IMG/VR virus record: IMGVR_UViG_3300032278_000128
Location: 1 to 21,951 of that record
Origin: a virus
Strand: one strand, 5' to 3'
DNA length: 21,951 nucleotides
Part shown: one piece after another, positions 12,788 through 21,949 of the stretch
Numbering within the stretch: the first letter of the stretch is position 1
How the letters are laid out: every line of letters starts with the position of its first letter
Translations under genes and position numbers: made by a program
The notes under the pieces: generated by a model
What the model was told of the DNA's origin: nothing
Databases searched by the model: none
The model's input: the letters and a program-made list of their open reading frames with translations, nothing else

Positions 12788-13591
12788 ATGCTGTCAAGAA
12801 TAAGGAGAGAAGGACAAAGGTTAACGGTTAATGGGACTGGAGTAAACGCTATACAAAGTTTATCTTTCGGGTATCAGTCTACCGCGCAGCCAATTACCCC
12901 TCTTGGCTTATCTCAGGTTGTTTATGCCCCAAGTGCTCCCCAAACAGCCACAATTAACACTAATTCGTTACTGGTATATGATGATTTTTTCATAAATTTT
13001 ACTGGAGAAATGCCTTTTAGCGGACAGGTTGATTATAAAGACCAGAACGTGAAGTTTACCGAAGCTTACCTTTCTTCATATTCTTCCTCCTGCTCGATAG
13101 GGGAAATACCGTCCATAGGTATGCAGGCGGACATTTTCGGGGAACTGGGAACCGGAAGTTTCTTTGATTTCGGAGCTACAACTCCTCATGATGAGGAATT
13201 AAAGATAGCTGGATATAACTCGATTGATATTAGTTTGGATGAGTTCTCTTCGAACAGGGTAAATAGTTACTCTTTGGATATTGGGGTTCCTAGGTCTCCC
13301 GTATACGCTTTTAACGACAGAACTCCCTCGGAGGTTGTATCCAATTCTCCGTTGTCCGTGTCTTTAAATTTTAATATTGAACCTGATGATTATAAAATAA
13401 AGAATATGAGATTCGTGCCAGAAGAAACCGTTTTTAGGAACGTCAGGGTAAGGGTTAATAAGAATAATTCGACAGAAAAAATTCAAGATTATCTTTTTAA
13501 TAATCTTCTTTTAGTTTCAGAACAATACAGCGCAGACAATAATGGCAATGTAGGAATACAAATGAGCCTACAAGGAACAATTTTGAGATAG
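12788..13591 (+). CDS. Tail-associated two-domain beta protein, paralogue 1 of 3 (267 aa)
   Basis: The first gene of the divergent plus-strand operon. It has no signal peptide or membrane segment and looks beta-rich. Two related halves can be seen. The first contains a Y.ST..P..PLG stretch and ends in AYLSSYSSSCSIGEIPSIGMQ. The second contains SYSLDIGVPRSPVYAFNDRTPSEVV. The same two patterns, xYLxSYxxxxEPxxPV and SxxxxxxPVYxxGxxxP, occur in the next two proteins, so the three are paralogues. A tail-tube-like or tail-decoration role is likely, given the lambda-type tail-tip operon next door and the TIG protein downstream; this is inference, not a family match. The ATG is used without a visible Shine-Dalgarno sequence. 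The stop lies 14 bases before the next gene. Confidence 0.8.
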   Translation: MLSRIRREGQRLTVNGTGVNAIQSLSFGYQSTAQPITPLGLSQVVYAPSAPQTATINTNSLLVYDDFFINFTGEMPFSGQVDYKDQNVKFTEAYLSSYSSSCSIGEIPSIGMQADIFGELGTGSFFDFGATTPHDEELKIAGYNSIDISLDEFSSNRVNSYSLDIGVPRSPVYAFNDRTPSEVVSNSPLSVSLNFNIEPDDYKIKNMRFVPEETVFRNVRVRVNKNNSTEKIQDYLFNNLLLVSEQYSADNNGNVGIQMSLQGTILR

Positions 13592-13605
13592 GTGTAATTT
13601 GTAAG

Positions 13606-14466
13606 ATGGCTTCGATTCGTTACGACAAAATCCCCTTAATTCTGGAATACGATGGTAGAACAGAAAAGGTATTGGCGTATGACTGTTCGTTAAACGAAGA
13701 GGCTACTCTTCAGCCTGCTTACTCCATAGGGAAACAGGGGATAGCTGAGCAGACTCCTGCGGGAGCCAGAAAAGCTAGCGTTTCTTTTTCTTACACTCCG
13801 GTATTAACGGGATATGCGACAGTAGGGAATGAATTCAACATAATAAACGAAGCCGCAAGAAAACAAAAAATACTGAAAGGAACTCAAGCAACGGAAGTTG
13901 CTATAAGGTTTGGAGGAATTAGTGGAGAAGGGTTGTTGGAGTCTTATTCTGTTTCTCTCGAACCTTACGCTCCGGTTACCTGCAATGTTAATTTTCTATT
14001 ACTTGGTTCAGGGGAGAATATTCCCGTAAGCGGAGAATTAATATCGCAAGATCAAGCACATAAGCAGGCGGATTTAGCGTCAGACGTTGGCCATACGGCT
14101 TACTCTGATTTTATGGCGGGAGAATCTCCGGCCACTATAACTAGCGATAACCAAACGGGTGTTTTGACTTCCGTAAACTATTCTATAAATTTTAATTACG
14201 AACCAGTTTACAAGCTTGGGCAGGAATTTCCGTCCACTTTTCTCTACCATTCAGCAAATGAACGAGCCGAGATAAGCGAAAACACTTTCGAAACAGGAAT
14301 AGCGTTTACAGGTAAAGCAGAAAATTTTGATTTGGAAATAAAAAGCTTGGATAATAAAACAGCAATGAGGATAAGAATGACGAGGCCGATAGTAAAGGAT
14401 TCAAGGTTAAGTATCTCTGCCGGAGACATAGCGAACACCTCCAAAACACTCAACAGTTTTTACTAA
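13606..14466 (+). CDS. Tail-associated two-domain beta protein, paralogue 2 of 3 (286 aa)
   Basis: A paralogue of the proteins on either side and the one in which the repeat is easiest to see. First half, residues about 1-140: LQPAYSIGKQGIAEQTPAGARKASVSFSY, then GLLESYSVSLEPYAPVTCNVNFLLLGSG. Second half, about 170-286: SVNYSINFNYEPVYKLGQEFPSTFL. Each half is a compact beta domain of about 130 residues, the size of a typical tail-tube subunit fold. Two-domain tube-like proteins occur in some phages, but no family match can be claimed by eye. A weak AGGTG lies about 14 bases before the ATG. The stop TAA overlaps the next ATG by one base, so paralogues 2 and 3 are translationally coupled and probably made in similar amounts. 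Confidence 0.82.
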   Translation: MASIRYDKIPLILEYDGRTEKVLAYDCSLNEEATLQPAYSIGKQGIAEQTPAGARKASVSFSYTPVLTGYATVGNEFNIINEAARKQKILKGTQATEVAIRFGGISGEGLLESYSVSLEPYAPVTCNVNFLLLGSGENIPVSGELISQDQAHKQADLASDVGHTAYSDFMAGESPATITSDNQTGVLTSVNYSINFNYEPVYKLGQEFPSTFLYHSANERAEISENTFETGIAFTGKAENFDLEIKSLDNKTAMRIRMTRPIVKDSRLSISAGDIANTSKTLNSFY

Positions 14467-15353
14467 TGATTTTCGCCGCTAAAAATACGAAATTAAAACT
14501 TAATGAAGTTGATATCCTAGCTTCTCAATGCACGCTTGACGTTGCTACTTCCATTAACCCTAGATACGATGCTGGAGATAGACATACAAGAACGTATTTC
14601 GCGGATAATGGGTTAGGCTCAAGTCTTACGTTCACTCATTACCTTACGGGAAGTTTGGATAAGATAAAAACTTTCATTTCAGAGCAGGGAGAGTTGATCG
14701 GCTCTGATAATCGCAGCAACGAAGGGCAAATCATATCGGGAAGCTTTGGGGGATTGACCTTCACAAGTGGATATCTCGCGAGCTATACAATAAGGTTCGA
14801 ACCGAATAGACCTGTTACGGCTAATTCGACAGTAGTTTTTTATGATGATTTAGACGGTGAATTCACCCAAAACATAGAACCTGTCGAAGAAGAATCCATT
14901 CTTAATTGTAAAAACATAACTTTCGAAAATACATCAACAGAAGAAATAGGAGAGATTAATGATTTTATTTCAGCTTCTTATAATTATACCTCTGATGTAA
15001 GACCGGTGTACTCTGCAGGAAATACTGTTCCCGATAGGATATCTTTCGGAAGAAAGAGTGTCGCGATGGGAATTCAGGTAGATAATCCCACGGGGTATCT
15101 GCATTACAACGGAATTACAGCTAACTTTAAGATAAACCTATCTAATCACGAAGGAAATGAAAGTGTAGAAAATTTTACGTGCTTCGGAACATTGCAATCC
15201 AGAGCGATACAGGCTAGAGCAGGAGATAGGGTAAATCATCAATTGGCTGTAGTTTCTCACAAACATACCGTTCTAGCAAAGATCTTTGGTATTACTCCAA
15301 CCACGAGACCCGATATTAATGAGGGGATTTATCCCCCTCTGAACCTAAATTAA
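14466..15353 (+). CDS. Tail-associated two-domain beta protein, paralogue 3 of 3 (295 aa)
   Basis: The third tandem paralogue. First half: INPRYDAGDRHTRTYFADNG, then GYLASYTIRFEPNRPVTANS, matching the GLLESYSVSLEPYAPV block of paralogue 2. Second half: ISASYNYTSDVRPVYSAGN, matching SVNYSINFNYEPVYKLGQ. No signal peptide or membrane segment is present. It shares its first base with the last base of the preceding stop codon (TAATG) and ends one base before the TIG-protein start, so the four plus-strand genes form one operon. The C-terminus (GITPTTRPDINEGIYPPLNLN) is unique to this copy. Divergence among the three suggests different positions in the particle, for example tube, tube initiator or terminator; this is inference. 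Confidence 0.82.
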   Translation: MIFAAKNTKLKLNEVDILASQCTLDVATSINPRYDAGDRHTRTYFADNGLGSSLTFTHYLTGSLDKIKTFISEQGELIGSDNRSNEGQIISGSFGGLTFTSGYLASYTIRFEPNRPVTANSTVVFYDDLDGEFTQNIEPVEEESILNCKNITFENTSTEEIGEINDFISASYNYTSDVRPVYSAGNTVPDRISFGRKSVAMGIQVDNPTGYLHYNGITANFKINLSNHEGNESVENFTCFGTLQSRAIQARAGDRVNHQLAVVSHKHTVLAKIFGITPTTRPDINEGIYPPLNLN

Positions 15354-15354
15354 T

Positions 15355-18300
15355 ATGCCAGTATTTTATCCAAATTCAGGTTTTTATATTAGCGGGGAAA
15401 ATTTAGACTCTGTAAGTAAGGTTAGATGGGGAGACGTAGATATAGGAAGGGAGAAGATTCTGATAGATGGAACTACGGGGATAAGTGGGGTAATGCCTCC
15501 GAACGCTCAAACGGATATTGTTTTTTTTGTAGAGTCTGACGGTACGGTTACTTCGTTGGGGGAACAGCAAGTAAGGTTAAAGGAGGTAGACCAGATAACT
15601 GTAGGCTCTCTGAATGTAACCTCCGGAAATGCAAATGATATAGTACCTGTAACTGGGAAAAATTTCTATAGAGTAACTAATGTAAAGTTTGGAAATTCCG
15701 AAGCTAATTTCTTCTTAAATTCTCCTAGTGAAATAGAAGCGATTGTTCCTTTTGGTGCTGAGTATGGTAGTGTAACGGTTTATTCTTCTGTGAGGTCAGG
15801 AGAAGATGATGTTTATGGAGAGAAAACATTCTATAATAGCGGAGCATCCCCGAACAGTTTTACTACGCTGTCAGAAATAACTTCCATAAATCCAAATCAA
15901 CAAATTTTTGGTGAAAGCATAACTATTTCAGGGAATAGCTTGAGCTCTGTTACAGGAGTTAGGTTTCCTGACTCCAACATCGTTAATCCCGCTTCTCAAG
16001 TCTCAAATAATTCCTTTACTGTAGAAGTTCCTACTGGGAAAACTAGAGGAGCGTTGACATTGCTTCTAGAGGGGGGGCTGTCCAAGACTCCATCTAGCAC
16101 GAGTAATACATTCAGTCATATAGCTCTCATAGATAACGTGCCGTCGGTGGTAGTTGGGGGCAACCAGATACTTTTACAAGGAAGAAATTTCCACACCGGG
16201 CTTCTTTTTAATCAGGGGAATAGTTTAGTGAAGGTAGACTTTAGCGGGGTAACTGTTTCCGGATTTAAGGTTATAAGCCCAACGCTTATAGAGGGTAAGG
16301 TTCCTTCGAATTTAGAAACAGGTGAAACTTTATTGTCTCTTTTCGACGAAATAGGGGGAATATACCCCTCAGGTAAGACGATAACGGTAAGTGGGAATTT
16401 GCCTGTCATAAATAAAGTGAGACCAGATTACGGAATCACCGGAACTATTGTTAATATAGAAGGAAGAAATTTAATTGGAATAAAAAGCGTTACTTTAACT
16501 AGCGAAAAGGATTCAGGTAACTTTGCAAAAATAACAGGATCGAGTATTACAGATTCTTCATTGGGAGACTTTACGCAGGTTGCTATACCTACAGGATTGC
16601 AGTCCGGCTATAGTTCCGGAGAGGGTCGTTTCGCTTTAAATGTGGAGGTTAGCGGTTCATTTGGAGTTTCGAATAAATTAAGTAGTGGGTATTTGATTAT
16701 AGGAAGACCCGTTATCGAACAAGTTTCCGGGGGTGTTGATGCTACTCGTCAGCCAAGAGAGTCTGGAGCTTTGTCCGGAATCAATTTGCTTCGAGAATCT
16801 CGAGTGCAGATGTTTGATTCCGTCGACGAAAGCAGCATGGGTTTCGTTTCAGTTAGAAATACTTTTATAAACGCAAGCGGAGATTATGAAAAAGTTTCGT
16901 TTCTTTTTCCAGAGTCTTTCTCTTCGACTGGGGTAAAGTTAAAGGTGTCAAACTTGGGAGGAGTAAGTAATTTCTCCGACTCAATCCCCGTCTTTAAAGA
17001 GCCGGAGATTTCAGGTTTCGCTCCCGCTTCTGGCGTAGCAGGTACATCTGTTTTGGTAAGCGGTTACTTTAGTGGATTGAAGGAAGATACGGTAAAGGTA
17101 GGGACCGTTAACGTAAGCAATTTAATTTTTAATGAAAATACTGGTTTATCATTCGATTTTCCTCCTAATGCTACATCTGATTTTATTAATGTGGAAACAA
17201 GTGGAGGGACAGCGCAGTCTAAAACTAGATTTTCGTTACAGCCCGATATTCCTATAATAACAGGCTTTGATCCTGACGCGAATTCGCCTTTGGATTATTC
17301 TGTTTTCTCTAAGAATCAAAAGATAGATATACTGGGAAGCAATCTTGGCTTGGTTAATCAGGTACTTTTCTATGATAAAAACGGATTTGATACTCTCTTG
17401 ACTTCTCCGGACTTTTCATTTCGATCTTCCAATAAGATTTCTGTTTTTCTGAAAGATACAGCAGCCAGCGAAGATGTTAACAATTTATATTTAAGTGGTA
17501 ACGGTGGAAAGATAAGGTTGCAGGATAGGTTTTCTAGGCGTGTCACGGGTAGTCAACAGTTCAGGATAGCTGAGTTCTCTGGGACTTCTAGCAGCTACGC
17601 TGCTTTCGGCGAGGAATTATCTTTTAGTGGAAAGTTTTTCTCAGGACTAAATGCAACATTTAAAGACGAAAGCGGGATTAACGTACCCGGAGAGTATCAA
17701 TCAACCACAACGATTTCGAATACTGGGTATACTTTCAGCACAAAGGTACCGAGGGATATTGTTGGTTCGGAGATTTTAATTTCAGGAAACAATAACAAAT
17801 CTATACATACGACCACTGGTCAGTTTTTTCCTTTGCCTACTATCACTGGAGTTAGTGGAGTTAGCGATTTTTCTTTCGGGATTGGGGATAATTTTCAAGT
17901 CACGGGCGTAAATTCTTTCGGTGGTTTTCAGTCGGGTGATGCAGTTGTTGGAATAACGGGAGACGGCGAGCACTCTTTCTTTGGTATTAATTCTTTTTCC
18001 AGAGCGATTGATTCTAGTGGGGAAAAAGTGTCAGTTTTTGATTTGAATGTGGGAGATAATTTCACTGGAAGCGGGCAGCTATTTATTATGAGTCCTTGGG
18101 AGGATTACAACTCAACGAACTTTAGTTTCCCTTCCTCCAAAACCAATGAAAATATCAATAAAATTTTAACCGATGATTTTTATACTATTGTTTACCCTCA
18201 ACCTATTATTACGGGTATAGCAACAGGCAATAAATTCAATGAAAGAATATCTGGTTTTATAAGCGGAAATAATCTTTCTCCTGTCACCGGCGTATTCTTT

Positions 18301-19005
18301 TCTGGTTCAGGAAGCGGAGTATTGCATCAGGCATCAAGTTTTAAAGCTTCATCTAATACTTTATTGCAGTTTGCTCCGCCTTTTGGGGCTTACGGAGCGA
18401 TAGGAGACGGATCTACCGGTTCCGCTCTAACGGGTTCGGGGTATTTGATTGTTAAATCTCCGCAAGGAGATGTAACAAGTGAAGATTCTTTTGGGCAAAT
18501 AGAACTTATTCAGCCAGTTTCTTTTGACAGCTTTAGCCCTCTGGAGGGTATAACCGGCTCAGATGTTTATTTAATTGATAATCTTACCGCAGGTCTTGGG
18601 GGGTCATTGCTGCATACTTCTAAGGTTACTTTCGAAACTGTGGATCATGCTGGAGAGGCCGATTTTGTTATTGACTCACGAGCAAGAGTTACCGCTACCG
18701 TTCCTCAGTTTTCGATAGCAGAAGGCCAAGACGCTTTAATAACTATTCATGGGGTTCTTACTGATAAAGTAACGTCGGCAAACGTTCTGTCTTATTATCA
18801 TCCCGATAACGATAGGTTTACGGTAGTTCATGATTCTCCGACAGTTCAGTTTAATGTTTTAAGCGGTAGGGTTGCTCCAGAGGTGGGGTCAAGTAGGTCG
18901 GCAATATTTACAATAGTAGAGAGCATAGACGGAATTGATTATTACGTGACGAAGATGATTAATCCGGATGGCAAAGAGGTAATCATTAATACTGAAACAA
19001 CATAA
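15355..19005 (+). CDS. Multi-domain IPT/TIG (Ig-like) repeat protein, putative tail decoration or fibre
   Basis: A 1216-aa chain of about 12 IPT/TIG-type immunoglobulin-like domains, each about 80-110 residues. The recurring signature is P.I..(v/f).P..G..G..v.I.G.NL..v..V.F followed by a VP.G...G.(v/l).V strand. Clear copies begin near residues 173 (ITSINPNQQIFGESITISGNS), 352 (INKVRPDYGITGTIVNIEG), 548 (ISGFAPASGVAGTSVLVSG), 637, 735, 826, 948 and 1052 (FDSFSPLEGITGSDVYLID). Partial or diverged copies fill the first 170 residues and the gaps. Cysteine is absent as far as I can see. Ig-like and TIG domains commonly decorate phage tails and bind cell-surface sugars. The C-terminal 60 residues (FTIVESIDGIDYYVTKMINP) are not TIG-like. 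The gene follows paralogue 3 by one base and is the last gene of this operon. The domain assignment is firm; fibre or decoration role is inferred. Confidence 0.85.
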   Translation: MPVFYPNSGFYISGENLDSVSKVRWGDVDIGREKILIDGTTGISGVMPPNAQTDIVFFVESDGTVTSLGEQQVRLKEVDQITVGSLNVTSGNANDIVPVTGKNFYRVTNVKFGNSEANFFLNSPSEIEAIVPFGAEYGSVTVYSSVRSGEDDVYGEKTFYNSGASPNSFTTLSEITSINPNQQIFGESITISGNSLSSVTGVRFPDSNIVNPASQVSNNSFTVEVPTGKTRGALTLLLEGGLSKTPSSTSNTFSHIALIDNVPSVVVGGNQILLQGRNFHTGLLFNQGNSLVKVDFSGVTVSGFKVISPTLIEGKVPSNLETGETLLSLFDEIGGIYPSGKTITVSGNLPVINKVRPDYGITGTIVNIEGRNLIGIKSVTLTSEKDSGNFAKITGSSITDSSLGDFTQVAIPTGLQSGYSSGEGRFALNVEVSGSFGVSNKLSSGYLIIGRPVIEQVSGGVDATRQPRESGALSGINLLRESRVQMFDSVDESSMGFVSVRNTFINASGDYEKVSFLFPESFSSTGVKLKVSNLGGVSNFSDSIPVFKEPEISGFAPASGVAGTSVLVSGYFSGLKEDTVKVGTVNVSNLIFNENTGLSFDFPPNATSDFINVETSGGTAQSKTRFSLQPDIPIITGFDPDANSPLDYSVFSKNQKIDILGSNLGLVNQVLFYDKNGFDTLLTSPDFSFRSSNKISVFLKDTAASEDVNNLYLSGNGGKIRLQDRFSRRVTGSQQFRIAEFSGTSSSYAAFGEELSFSGKFFSGLNATFKDESGINVPGEYQSTTTISNTGYTFSTKVPRDIVGSEILISGNNNKSIHTTTGQFFPLPTITGVSGVSDFSFGIGDNFQVTGVNSFGGFQSGDAVVGITGDGEHSFFGINSFSRAIDSSGEKVSVFDLNVGDNFTGSGQLFIMSPWEDYNSTNFSFPSSKTNENINKILTDDFYTIVYPQPIITGIATGNKFNERISGFISGNNLSPVTGVFFSGSGSGVLHQASSFKASSNTLLQFAPPFGAYGAIGDGSTGSALTGSGYLIVKSPQGDVTSEDSFGQIELIQPVSFDSFSPLEGITGSDVYLIDNLTAGLGGSLLHTSKVTFETVDHAGEADFVIDSRARVTATVPQFSIAEGQDALITIHGVLTDKVTSANVLSYYHPDNDRFTVVHDSPTVQFNVLSGRVAPEVGSSRSAIFTIVESIDGIDYYVTKMINPDGKEVIINTETT

Positions 19006-19008
19006 AAA

Positions 19009-19034
19009 TAACCACCGACTTTCGCCGGTGGTTA
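19009..19034 (-). terminator. Intrinsic terminator of the minus-strand tnpB transcript
   Basis: A perfect 9-bp stem (TAACCACCG / CGGTGGTTA) with an 8-base loop. Read on the minus strand it is followed by TTTTTATG, so it fits a rho-independent terminator for transcripts coming through the tnpB-like gene and its 3' flank. Read on the plus strand it starts 3 bases after the TIG-protein stop but is followed by AAAATGAG without a T run, so it would be weak in that direction, though the hairpin could still protect the mRNA 3' end. Confidence 0.75.
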
Positions 19035-19224
19035 AAATGAGCTTTTGTTTCTACTACTCTCTCAGCTAGGAAGCCTGAAACCTACTGCATAATTAGAGAT
19101 AGTGTTAGTTTTGTAACCACTTAATTCTAAGACGAAGTCATTTCGGACTTCTCTTTCCTTTTCGAATTAAGTATTTTATGTTATGCGGGGTTTGTACTTA
19201 CTCTTTCTCGGGTTAGGACCCCTA
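19035..19224 (-). ncRNA. Candidate structured RNA downstream of tnpB (possible omega RNA)
   Basis: This interval of about 190 bases between the tnpB-like stop and the terminator has no convincing gene but much complementarity. A 9-bp stem joins 19119-19127 with 19164-19172 and encloses a 6-bp hairpin (19134-19139 with 19146-19151). A bulged 6-bp hairpin at 19211-19226 covers the tnpB stop codon. A short stem pairs 19047-19051 with 19077-19081. TnpB nucleases of IS200/IS605 elements work with an RNA encoded at and beyond the 3' end of tnpB, so position and orientation fit an omega RNA. Guide boundary and element end cannot be fixed here. The stems alone could also be an untranslated leader or insertion-sequence end. 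Confidence 0.35.
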
Positions 19225-20580
19225 CCTACCGTTTATTTGAGAGGAGTGAAAAATGTTTTCGCTTTCTTTTATTTTAGCCCATTGTTTGCTTTTATCAAAC
19301 GTCCAGAAATCGATATCCGCTAAGTACTTTGCGTATACGACATGGTTCTTAGCTCCGGTTCGGTCGGCATTTTCGGCTTTATTACAATGTTCACAGGTAA
19401 AGGTGTTGGTTTTCTTATCTCTTGAACTGTTTGCCTTACTCAAGTCCAACCAGCCGCAATGTATGCATCTCCGAGAAGTATAATAACTCGGAGCGAGAAT
19501 ATAGGGAACCTTTCTTTCGATGCATTTATCAACAAACAGTTGCTTCAGTTTGTCTTGACCGAAAGTACCGAGCTCCTCTCCCATAGCGACAGTGTCAATC
19601 GCCAAACCGTAAGATTTTGATACTGCGTAATCTAGAATTGAATCTATAATTCCTCTTTCTTTACCGGGAAACCGAGAAGTTTCTATAAGATTCATATGTT
19701 TTTCGTGGAGTTTTTGAATCTCCAGCCTTACGGGTGTCCGTTGCTTGGATCGAACTTCTCTTTCTGAAATCTTTTTGTGAACCTTAACGATCTTGTTTAA
19801 AGATTCAATATGTTTTTCGAGAGCCGAGATAACTGGGTATGATTTTTTGGATATTTTTTCCTGCCCGAAGACATCTTCAGAAAAGTATATCCAATTTTCA
19901 TTAGACTTATTAAAATCCAACCCGATAAAACCTTTTGGATAATAATCAAATTCAACCGGAACATCGACGCTTGCCACTATTCTGTCAGGTTTGCCTTCCT
20001 TGCCGAATACAATTGTCCCCCCAAACTTTTTTTCGATATTTACGTGTTCAATGTATTTTAAGGCGTTGTTTTGAATCCCCTTACACTTGGAGGATTTTCT
20101 GTACCTGACAATGGATTTGGTTCCATCTAGGTTTTTTACTTTCAGCTTTCCATTAATTTTATTTTTATAAAACTCGAAGAAACCATCTCCCATTACTAGA
20201 TTATCACTTCTTACGGCGATAAAATTGGGAAGTTTACCCTTGTTTCTTTTCTTGTAGCCTTTGTATTTTCTCAACTGTCCGGCAGTAAACATTCTTAACT
20301 GTGTCGTAACCTTAGATTTTTCATAAGGAGAAAAAATATCAGACATGAATTCTTTCATGAAATTAGACGTAGTTAACTTCTCTCCATCAGGGAGAGCTTC
20401 TCTGTGGATGTAGACATCGTTAAATGATCCATTGATATTAATTAAAATATTGTCTCTTATTAGAGACGATATTCTTTCGTTGATCTGGATCATCAGGGGG
20501 TGAGTCTGCTTCCTGAGATTAGAAAGCCCGTTCTTGTCGGCGATAATTAGTTTTATCGCCTTTTTTACATTAATTGTCAT
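19222..20580 (-). CDS. tnpB: TnpB/OrfB-like RuvC nuclease (IS200/IS605 family, Cas12 ancestor type)
   Basis: A 452-aa protein with TnpB architecture. Residues about 100-210 look like the beta-rich wedge region. RuvC-I is at Asp222 (FIGLDFNKSNENW). A helical segment follows at about 250-320. The RuvC-II strand is YGLAIDTVAMGEEL (324-337), where the strand position that usually carries Glu appears to be Asp329, with Glu335/336 nearby. Next come PSYYTSRRC, a zinc ribbon of Cys372-x2-Cys375 and Cys396-x2-Cys399, and RuvC-III Asp406 in ENADRTGAKNH. Family members are RNA-guided DNA endonucleases that help their element persist, and some have become repressors or phage genes. No tnpA transposase is present in the window. 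It starts about 100 bases after the cyclase gene ends, without a clear Shine-Dalgarno sequence. Family assignment is firm; mobility and activity are not established. Confidence 0.92.
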   Translation of the reverse strand: MTINVKKAIKLIIADKNGLSNLRKQTHPLMIQINERISSLIRDNILININGSFNDVYIHREALPDGEKLTTSNFMKEFMSDIFSPYEKSKVTTQLRMFTAGQLRKYKGYKKRNKGKLPNFIAVRSDNLVMGDGFFEFYKNKINGKLKVKNLDGTKSIVRYRKSSKCKGIQNNALKYIEHVNIEKKFGGTIVFGKEGKPDRIVASVDVPVEFDYYPKGFIGLDFNKSNENWIYFSEDVFGQEKISKKSYPVISALEKHIESLNKIVKVHKKISEREVRSKQRTPVRLEIQKLHEKHMNLIETSRFPGKERGIIDSILDYAVSKSYGLAIDTVAMGEELGTFGQDKLKQLFVDKCIERKVPYILAPSYYTSRRCIHCGWLDLSKANSSRDKKTNTFTCEHCNKAENADRTGAKNHVVYAKYLADIDFWTFDKSKQWAKIKESENIFHSSQINGR

Positions 20581-20671: not shown

Positions 20672-20693
20672 AAAAGATTTTGTCTAATCTTTT
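20672..20693. terminator. A/T-rich hairpin at the end of the cyclase gene
   Basis: An 8-bp perfect stem (AAAAGATT / AATCTTTT) around a 6-base loop, overlapping the last codons and stop of the ankyrin-cyclase gene. It contains no G+C-rich core and is not followed by a T run on the minus strand, so it would be a weak terminator at best; on the plus strand a short T run does follow. Confidence 0.25.
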
Positions 20694-21949
20694 TTAAATT
20701 CTGCTTTCTTTGTTCCTCTCCAATCGGGAAATTCAGTTCTTCCAAAGCCGGGACCATAAGCTGTGAGAAGGTGAACGGTCGAACCATGTTTGACAAATAC
20801 TTGCCCCCAATCTTCAAATTTTAATCCGGGAATATCCATTTCGCTAACATTCATATACACGCCGTTAGAGATTAAAATGTGATCGTTGTCTCCGGCATCC
20901 ATACATCTTTGCGCCATATTGATGCCGTGACCACTGACGTTGGGGTTATTATTTATGTCTCTTACGGGTACAACTGGACCCGTATAAAGACCATTCCTTA
21001 AGCCTATGTCTTTGCTTTTATAGCATTTCTTACCTACGTCGACAGCACATTTGAAAGCGGCATGAACGCTATTGAAAAATACGAGAGCCATTCCGTCTCC
21101 GGTTGGAAGAATAATCAGTTTCCCTTGTCTTTGTGCTTGTTGGTAGCCTTGTGTTCCCTTGACGATAGCTATAAGGTCGTCCATCACTTTCTTCTGCATG
21201 GGGGTACTCTTCTTTGAGTACCCCACAATATCCATGAAGTATGTGTAAGATTCACAAGGGCTATCATATGTAATAGAGTCACCCTTGCAGGTAAATGGAT
21301 CCTCTCCCCATTTCCATTTAATGACCCTAGATCTTTTTAAGCGCTCTTCTTCTTCTTTAGCTTTATCGGCGGCTTCTTTTATGAGGGCATTTCTTTCTTC
21401 ATGTTCTTTCTTCGACGCTTCTTCCCTTGCCTGCCTGTCGGATTTAGATTCTGTCATTTTGCCCCAGAGACTGGTGGGAGCCTTTTTAGAGTCTTGGAAT
21501 TCCATGGACTTGTGTTCTTTAGGTTGATTGCTCCCTACTTGCACAGTAGACGTGATGCTTGGTTGTTTTTTGTAGTTTCTGTTGAGGTTCTTTTTACATC
21601 CTTTTAGTTTTAGATAATCAAGAAATTCTTCGCTTCCATTATCCGAAGCGATCTCGTAGGGGTTCAACTGGCCATCATGACATGACCCGTTAGGGTTGGC
21701 CTTGTGTTCAAACAGTATCTCACAGATATCTTTGTTTCCTAGTTCGACTGCGTAGTGAAGAGGCATCCAGCCTCTGTTGTCTCTTCCGTTTATTTTGACG
21801 CTTTCATCTTCAATAAGAGATTCTATTTCGTCTAGGTCCTCCATTTGAACAGCTTGATGGAGATTCATTTCGTTTCCGTAAAACTTACCTCCTTTTTTCT
21901 TAAAATTTGCTAATATCTTGGTTCGGTTAGGTCCTTCGGCTACGTCCAT
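20684..21949 (-). CDS. Ankyrin-repeat protein fused to a class III nucleotidyl cyclase domain
   Basis: Residues 28-117 hold about three ankyrin repeats (NLHQAVQMEDLDEIESLIED, GWMPLHYAVELGNKDICEIL, LNPYEIASDNGSEEFLDYL). A low-complexity linker and charged coiled coil follow at about 165-207. A class III cyclase catalytic domain occupies about 235-400: Asp240 in YFMDIVGYS and Asp285 in LPTGDGMALVFF bind the metals, Asn344 and Arg348 in GINMAQR match the transition-state pair, and Lys387 matches the C-terminal phosphate-binding lysine. The residues that select the base are Leu281 and Asn337, not the Lys/Asp of adenylate or Glu/Cys of guanylate cyclases, so the product is uncertain. Such domains act as homodimers making a cyclic nucleotide; Pycsar defence cyclases are of this class. 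The ATG is 2 bases from the window edge, so the true start may lie outside. No signal peptide or membrane segment. No effector gene is in view. Confidence 0.9.
   Translation of the reverse strand: MDVAEGPNRTKILANFKKKGGKFYGNEMNLHQAVQMEDLDEIESLIEDESVKINGRDNRGWMPLHYAVELGNKDICEILFEHKANPNGSCHDGQLNPYEIASDNGSEEFLDYLKLKGCKKNLNRNYKKQPSITSTVQVGSNQPKEHKSMEFQDSKKAPTSLWGKMTESKSDRQAREEASKKEHEERNALIKEAADKAKEEEERLKRSRVIKWKWGEDPFTCKGDSITYDSPCESYTYFMDIVGYSKKSTPMQKKVMDDLIAIVKGTQGYQQAQRQGKLIILPTGDGMALVFFNSVHAAFKCAVDVGKKCYKSKDIGLRNGLYTGPVVPVRDINNNPNVSGHGINMAQRCMDAGDNDHILISNGVYMNVSEMDIPGLKFEDWGQVFVKHGSTVHLLTAYGPGFGRTEFPDWRGTKKAEFKKD

Follow-up and report, generated by a model that had tools for sequence, protein, structure and literature searches.

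Phage proteins that join ankyrin repeats to a class III nucleotide cyclase, and their possible role in signalling to the host

What would a phage do with a nucleotide cyclase that carries an ankyrin array at its N-terminus? The question is raised by a gene at one end of the virus record IMGVR_UViG_3300032278_000128, which was analysed at its whole length of 21,951 nt (here called the window). An earlier reading of this DNA, made without database searches (the sequence-only reading), took the gene for an active ankyrin-cyclase fusion with unusual base-selecting residues, likened it to the Pycsar cyclases of anti-phage defence, and named a defence gene, a signal that reprograms the host and a decoy as possible roles.

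We found that the gene is a genuine open reading frame on the minus strand (20684..21949; 421 aa) that has lost its 5' end, ~92 codons, at the end of the contig. Relatives of the protein begin ~92 residues earlier than the window frame, so the start of that frame is artificial; the ATG at 21949 is internal, and the window runs only 2 bases past it. The extra N-terminal part of the relatives is also ankyrin. The closest relative found (L002/L048, 513 aa at full length) is 97% identical over 421 aa, and window residue numbers are converted to those of L048 by adding 92. Genes were called with a simple longest-ORF script rather than a gene finder, so short neighbouring genes may be miscalled.

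The N-terminal ankyrin repeats and coiled coil described by the sequence-only reading agree with what we found. Ankyrin repeats occupy residues 30-123 (21581..21862, minus strand; PF12796, E 1.6e-12), with further ankyrin upstream in full-length relatives. They are followed by a predicted long linker helix, residues 169-206 (21332..21445, minus strand), which corresponds to helix 261-298 in the AlphaFold2 model of L048 and fits a coiled coil. The remainder, residues 221-421 (20687..21289, minus strand), is a class III nucleotide cyclase domain, as indicated by profile, structure matches and trees. The full-length model has a pTM of 0.42 and does not fix the arrangement of the domains relative to one another.

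PF00211 scores the window protein at 15.2 bits, below the gathering cut-off of 21.9, and no cyclase family in PHROGs or NCBIfam matched the window protein or the L048 domain; in the same search the cyclase domain of a second phage lineage (clade 2, below) reached 29.9 bits against LipJ, far under its cut-off of 800. A profile built from 23 relatives finds solved cyclases (3mr7, E 4.7e-8; Rv1900c, 1ybt, E 6.1e-7). In addition, the domain was modelled with AlphaFold2 (mean pLDDT 88.9), and the model superimposes on the mycobacterial adenylyl cyclases Ma1120 (4wp9) and Rv1900c (1ybt/1ybu) with a Z of 18.4 and an rmsd of 2.4-2.6 over 157-159 residues. The phage enzyme shares with these two proteins the fold and the pair of metal-binding aspartates. 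In contrast, identity over the structural match is ~21%, and the solved domains have no ankyrin. The fold leaves the substrate undecided: the adenylyl cyclases match at Z 18.4, and Foldseek places a guanylate cyclase, 3et6, first. A structure search of viral proteins with the full model returned chiefly ankyrin proteins, and one giant-virus protein with a guanylate cyclase domain at rank 22.

The sequence-only reading placed the gene next to phage tail genes and raised the possibility that the right end of the contig is chimeric bacterial DNA. The gene is not adjacent to the tail genes: between them lie a TnpB-like gene and a block of four genes on the opposite strand. The same order (TnpB-like gene, then a block encoding proteins of 1216, 285, 286 and 267 aa, then tail genes) is found downstream of the cyclase in L002. 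A chimeric end is unlikely, because L002 is a separate, non-identical contig of 43 kb that keeps this gene order across the junction.

These neighbours have features of their own. The TnpB/Cas12f-like protein (19222-20580, minus strand; PF07282, E 1.2e-10) is encoded directly downstream of the cyclase, and a TnpB-like gene is also near the cyclase in L002, L004 and L008. The middle acidic residue of the RuvC site in TnpB is Glu; this position is Asp in all four phage proteins, and the last Asp is replaced by His in L004. After the gene come ~200 nt without a called ORF (19006-19221) that end, by eye, in a hairpin and a T run. It is possible that this protein is a nuclease-weakened regulator that depends on a guide RNA. 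The four-gene block (12788-19005, plus strand) ends in the 1216-aa protein, which has weak matches, below cut-off, to PhiKZ gp244 and TIG. Two of the smaller block proteins and the L002 homologue of the 1216-aa protein had no match in PHROG.

The gene is part of a large and widely distributed family, whose phages are known chiefly through environmental DNA. With the window protein as query, a scan of IMG/VR found 44 loci, and a profile scan gave 109 relatives, 80 of which were kept. The 110 family ORFs reduce to 53 distinct proteins of at least 300 aa. The 48 proteins of at least 470 aa were aligned; 36 entered the conservation alignment (A3) and 23 the profile alignment (A2). One cyclase that is split over two ORFs (L040) was excluded from alignments A1-A3. 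Clade 1, which includes the window, consists of proteins 51-97% identical to the window protein. The 38 loci of clade 2 are all close relatives and encode proteins of 591-592 aa with ~33% identity, and one protein (L068, 45% identity) is intermediate between the clades. Genes for PhoH, a terminase, a nuclease of the ERCC4 type and a protein with weak similarity to sigma factors are frequent in clade 1 loci; clade 2 loci encode the portal protein and the major head protein. When the neighbours within the fetched stretches were clustered by blastp, with 23 re-fetched duplicates omitted, what the two clades had in common was the cyclase, a small membrane protein and a further cluster limited to a single clade-1 locus; little else in these stretches is common to both. 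The cyclase is a genuine phage gene, present in viral records of two phage lineages.

In a representative genome set we found one full-length copy, flanked by clade-1 phage genes; it lies in a Flavobacteriales metagenome-assembled genome (MAG), on a contig of 77 kb. The full-length query, run against 50,697 phage records at E 1e-3, matched through its ankyrin part alone (query residues 5-230), in three records of phage WO. The cyclase domains of clade 2 and of a cellular relative had no match in these records, and an ordinary class III cyclase domain had one. A plasmid search with the cyclase domain found no match. The sequence-only reading knew of no described ankyrin-cyclase defence or counter-defence system of this layout, and we found no description in the open-access literature (subscription papers and preprints were outside the scope). 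This is a new phage family within a known enzyme class.

We found that the active site is intact throughout the family. In an alignment of 36 full-length relatives spanning both lineages, all seven residues named by the sequence-only reading are placed as it stated and are invariant (36/36). All are encoded on the minus strand. The metal-binding aspartates are Asp240 (L048 D332; 21230..21232) and Asp285 (L048 D377; 21095..21097). The transition-state residues are Asn344 (L048 N436; 20918..20920) and Arg348 (L048 R440; 20906..20908), and the phosphate-binding Lys387 (L048 K479; 20789..20791) is in a VKHG motif. The base-selecting positions, Leu281 (L048 L373; 21107..21109) and Asn337 (L048 N429; 20939..20941), are equally constant among the phage rows. 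The metal pair, the Asn/Arg pair and the lysine are what would be expected of a catalytically competent cyclase.

The catalytic domain is also under strong purifying selection. Among 14 clade-1 genes the median dN/dS was 0.015 for the cyclase domain (14 of 91 pairs usable), 0.071 for the ankyrin region (7/91) and 0.113 for the linker (30/91); the excluded pairs were saturated at synonymous sites, apart from one that was too close. With invariant catalytic residues and a dN/dS of ~0.015 in the cyclase domain, a dead enzyme acting as a decoy is unlikely. As judged from its sequence, the phage enzyme very probably makes a cyclic-nucleotide messenger.

Which nucleotide it makes is less readily told from the base-selecting positions. 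Adenylyl and guanylyl cyclases have canonical pairs of the Lys/Asp or Glu/Cys type, and the Leu/Asn pair of the phage family is neither. The sequence-only reading took this departure as a likeness to Pycsar. We found that the pair is common in a group of cellular class III cyclases, which we call LPTGDG cyclases. These are mostly 669-891 aa long with an N-terminal cyclase domain, and two of them pass PF00211 (36.3 and 28.3 bits). The second base position is Asn in all 19 cellular relatives, and the first is Leu in 13, Ile in four, Phe in one and a gap in one. At the first position the alignment puts a gap in each of the 21 other cyclases; the comparison of base positions is therefore confined to the phage and LPTGDG proteins. 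In the phylum of a 'PVC group' MAG, 288 genomes were searched with the profile; seven were positive and three of these had strong cellular relatives, two of them with 8-9 matches each. A 141-genome sample of one class added one more genome. In addition, phmmer ranks Rv1900c first among the solved matches of the window domain. Its structure entry names it an adenylyl cyclase, and in the alignment Asn replaces Lys at its first base position. A non-canonical pair is therefore, by itself, no pointer to pyrimidines.

We compared the phage domains directly to Pycsar-like cyclases, identified as PycC-model matches whose CNBD-TIR-like or transmembrane neighbours were judged by eye. In a tree of 43 domains (12 phage rows), the phage clade (99/95) and the cellular group (84/89) were joined at 100/100, and the three Pycsar-like cyclases fell elsewhere, on a branch of length 5.5; the Pycsar part of this tree consists of three proteins from one PADLOC model, one of them of odd composition. 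A 63-domain tree without Pycsar also united phage and cellular domains (99/95), with long-branch warnings, strongest for L119. The PADLOC PycC models gave two partial matches to phage domains (E 0.013-0.026, ~12 bits) and none to the L068 domain, and they scored an ordinary cyclase (L121) higher, at 23.5 bits. PycC entries were absent among the matches listed in PDB structure searches with the cyclase domain, which excludes nothing. The PycC base residues given in PMC11224242 (Tyr/Asp/Arg, Phe/Lys/Phe or Phe/Arg/Gln) differ from those of the phage family.

Several Pycsar-like and LPTGDG-like loci turned up alongside. Pycsar-like loci are present in 3 of 194 genomes of the PVC MAG's phylum (one PycC model, E 1e-20); by eye, the cyclase adjoins a CNBD-TIR-like protein in two (L304 and L305) and a multi-TM-like protein in the third (L306). 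A short cellular cyclase of 263 aa (L142:601-1389, plus strand) is long-branched, reads LPIGDG, has the same Asn position and is near a gene that by eye resembles a DNA cytosine methyltransferase. It is a possible defence-island relative of the LPTGDG subfamily.

The LPTGDG cyclases resemble the phage proteins in their cyclase motifs, Leu/Ile and Asn base positions, VKHG lysine and joint clade. They differ in layout: their cyclase domain is N-terminal, whereas that of the phage proteins is C-terminal. Two LPTGDG cyclases that were scanned have TPR over cut-off and sub-threshold TolB_N/FlgO behind the cyclase; in contrast, the phage proteins end soon after the cyclase and have no such TPR-bearing region. 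Where the full-length phage profile matches LPTGDG cyclases, the match spans the cyclase domain and extends no further than part of the linker, leaving out the ankyrin. Pelagiphage curli cassettes carry an adenylate cyclase for which PMC9599517 proposes a role in signalling. By that description it is like the ankyrin-cyclase in being phage-borne and proposed to signal, and unlike it in lying within a curli secretion cassette; we found CsgG in none of 26 records of the ankyrin-cyclase family, and a curli cassette as the setting was rejected. The ankyrin proteins of the Ankyphage and of phage WO are similarly phage-encoded. In contrast, the part matched in phage WO has no cyclase.

The sequence-only reading had suggested looking for an effector with a cyclic-nucleotide-binding domain (CNBD), a TIR domain or a transmembrane domain. 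None of 23 family records (22 virus records and one MAG) had a PF00027 receptor over cut-off, and 11 of 14 control genomes were positive. Since the searched virus records are fragmentary, they may lack a receptor gene that the phage has, and PF00027 may miss divergent receptors. A weak match in the L002 contig (13.3 bits) was dismissed; it falls on a cupin-like ORF.

One partner candidate is a small membrane protein similar to a minimal MscS channel (mini-MscS-like), the sole family besides the cyclase that is widely common to both lineages (38 clade-2 loci and 26 others, among them the MAG locus, L046). Its gene lies upstream of the cyclase, at a distance of 2-18 nt in all 38 of the closely related clade-2 loci and of 9 nt in L026. 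The L040 member matches the MscS beta domain at 29.8 bits (cut-off 20.2); three other scanned members are below. Of 296 mini-MscS loci we took the best 80, with flanks of up to 8 kb and some shorter, and found no cyclase in 64; 17 of 48 cyclase records, including records of 114-128 kb, have no mini-MscS-like gene. With these exceptions the protein is rejected as an obligate partner; clade 2 keeps a link open. Aligned members are 104-181 aa, with, by eye, one hydrophobic helix and a beta domain. The family is widespread in phages, with 296 relatives in viral contigs (loci L072-L109 and L148-L227, for example L082:9511-9897, plus strand), and L015, L019, L024 and L045 each have two divergent copies.

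Of 32 loci with a lipoprotein-like gene, 20 have the cyclase upstream of it and 12 lack the cyclase, three of these with <1.1 kb of upstream sequence; the lipoprotein too was rejected as an obligate partner. In L032, L033 and L037 the cyclase is preceded by a module whose genes encode a histidine kinase, a lone receiver domain and a protein that resembles a coiled coil and has hydrophobic stretches. The cyclase is within 4 kb in only 3 of 56 module loci, and the module was set aside as a dedicated input. This three-gene phage module (L032:7465-9678 and L309-L364) was found in 56 viral loci with a receiver query (66-100% identical), with the kinase in 55 and the membrane protein in all; the L032 kinase has PAS and HATPase_c domains. 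Prepilin-like genes are upstream of the cyclase in L002-L007 (L002:7072-9347 and L006:7012-8978, both plus strand; the two that were scanned have the N_methyl motif). Two genes downstream of a clade-2 cyclase is a Mom-family DNA modification protein (L082:11933-12703, plus strand; PF25680, E 1.8e-44).

The cyclase thus occurs in varied contexts (a PhoH/mini-MscS locus, prepilin-like genes, the kinase-receiver module, a region of head genes). Because each of the mini-MscS-like, lipoprotein, kinase-receiver and prepilin-like partners is inconstant, the cyclase is the constant element and its neighbours change. Among 34 mini-MscS-centred loci with PhoH and a second anchor gene, the cyclase is between the anchors in six, elsewhere in one and absent from the fetched stretch in 27. 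That is, the cyclase is an accessory gene at this site.

Some of these neighbours bear on the host. In the PVC MAG's phylum, 106 of 115 genomes have a match to the L006 prepilin-like protein, mostly over its N-terminal part, against none of 118 in the Flavobacteriales MAG's phylum; these were the two phyla tried. In addition, L020 carries a DUF1552 protein, and DUF1552 is common in PVC bacteria. These observations point, indirectly, to PVC-type hosts for the window's subclade. PVC hosts for all members are disfavoured by the clade-1 copy in the Flavobacteriales MAG.

Taken as a whole, the cyclase looks like a signalling tool inside the infected cell and not like a relative of known Pycsar enzymes. 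We propose, with a probability of roughly 45%, that it is a stand-alone, ankyrin-gated class III cyclase that signals through the host's cyclic-nucleotide receptors. The enzyme would be cytosolic and presumably a dimer. Its N-terminal ankyrin array would bind a protein made or exposed in infection, and binding would set the activity of the C-terminal cyclase through the helical linker. The product would most likely be a purine 3',5'-cyclic nucleotide, with cAMP favoured, and would act on the host's own receptors, so that the phage could alter host physiology using one accessory gene. The domains, the fold, the conserved active site, the purifying selection, the phage location and the accessory status were all computed, and no partner gene among those tested was constant. 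A receptor in the host is the simpler target, given that neither the 22 virus records nor the MAG had a CNBD gene over cut-off; for a stand-alone accessory enzyme with no phage receptor found, the simplest notion is that it signals into the host. The invariant residues, the dN/dS, the adenylyl cyclase fold, the varied contexts and the position between anchors in 6 of 34 loci favour signalling to the host, as does the union with a cellular subfamily whose two scanned members carry TPR. This proposal is weakened by the non-canonical Leu/Asn pair and the guanylate cyclase at the top of the Foldseek matches, and by the clade-2 MscS-like protein, which could be a phage-encoded effector.

That protein is central to the main rival, itself rather unlikely, which is superinfection exclusion with a membrane effector. 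The ankyrin array would detect a protein belonging to a rival phage. The cyclic nucleotide would then open or recruit a phage-encoded membrane protein, either the MscS-like mini-channel or the small lipoprotein, and shutdown of the cell would follow, much as in Pycsar but with unrelated parts. This idea is strongest in clade 2. The mini-MscS-like protein common to both lineages, its adjacency to the cyclase in every clade-2 locus and in L026, the lipoprotein genes with the cyclase upstream and the accessory status of the cyclase are all in its favour. The many loci in which either putative effector or the cyclase occurs without the other argue against it, as do the single MscS match over the Pfam cut-off among four proteins scanned and the absence of a CNBD over cut-off. 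A narrower version, in which the ankyrin-sensing cyclase gates the adjacent minimal MscS-like channel as a two-part phage system unrelated to Pycsar, directed against competing phages or timing lysis, seems to us improbable; it too is strongest in clade 2, where the genes are adjacent in all 38 loci.

It is also conceivable, at long odds, that the enzyme serves counter-defence by flooding or occupying the host's cyclic-nucleotide-sensing defences with a non-activating nucleotide. An accessory cyclase would suit this, and Pycsar-like loci do occur in the PVC MAG's phylum, but we saw no tie between the phage cyclase and any defence locus, and phages are known to answer such systems with nucleases (PMC9117128). 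We consider it very unlikely that the protein, in the manner of an Ankyphage factor, leaves the bacterium and targets a eukaryotic cell or a grazer, making contact by its ankyrin repeats and producing a cyclic nucleotide. Phage ankyrin proteins are said to act on eukaryotes (PMC9203015), but the N-terminus here (MGELHTLASNGN-like) has no signal peptide by eye and the relatives of the cyclase are bacterial. The slightest chance of all we give to a pyrimidine cyclase of the Pycsar type, the lead of the sequence-only reading. The non-canonical base positions and weak PycC matches could be read that way, but membership is rejected on the tree placement, the PycC model scores and the lack of a CNBD effector over cut-off in 23 records, and the base residues differ as well.

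To return to signalling through host receptors: if that proposal is correct, phages in the environment send their hosts messages in the form of cyclic nucleotides. We know of no product established for cyclases with a Leu/Asn base pocket, and the phage proteins provide an entry point to the cellular subfamily that shares it. The phage family also offers a direct test of second-messenger signalling by phages, perhaps in PVC-type bacteria.
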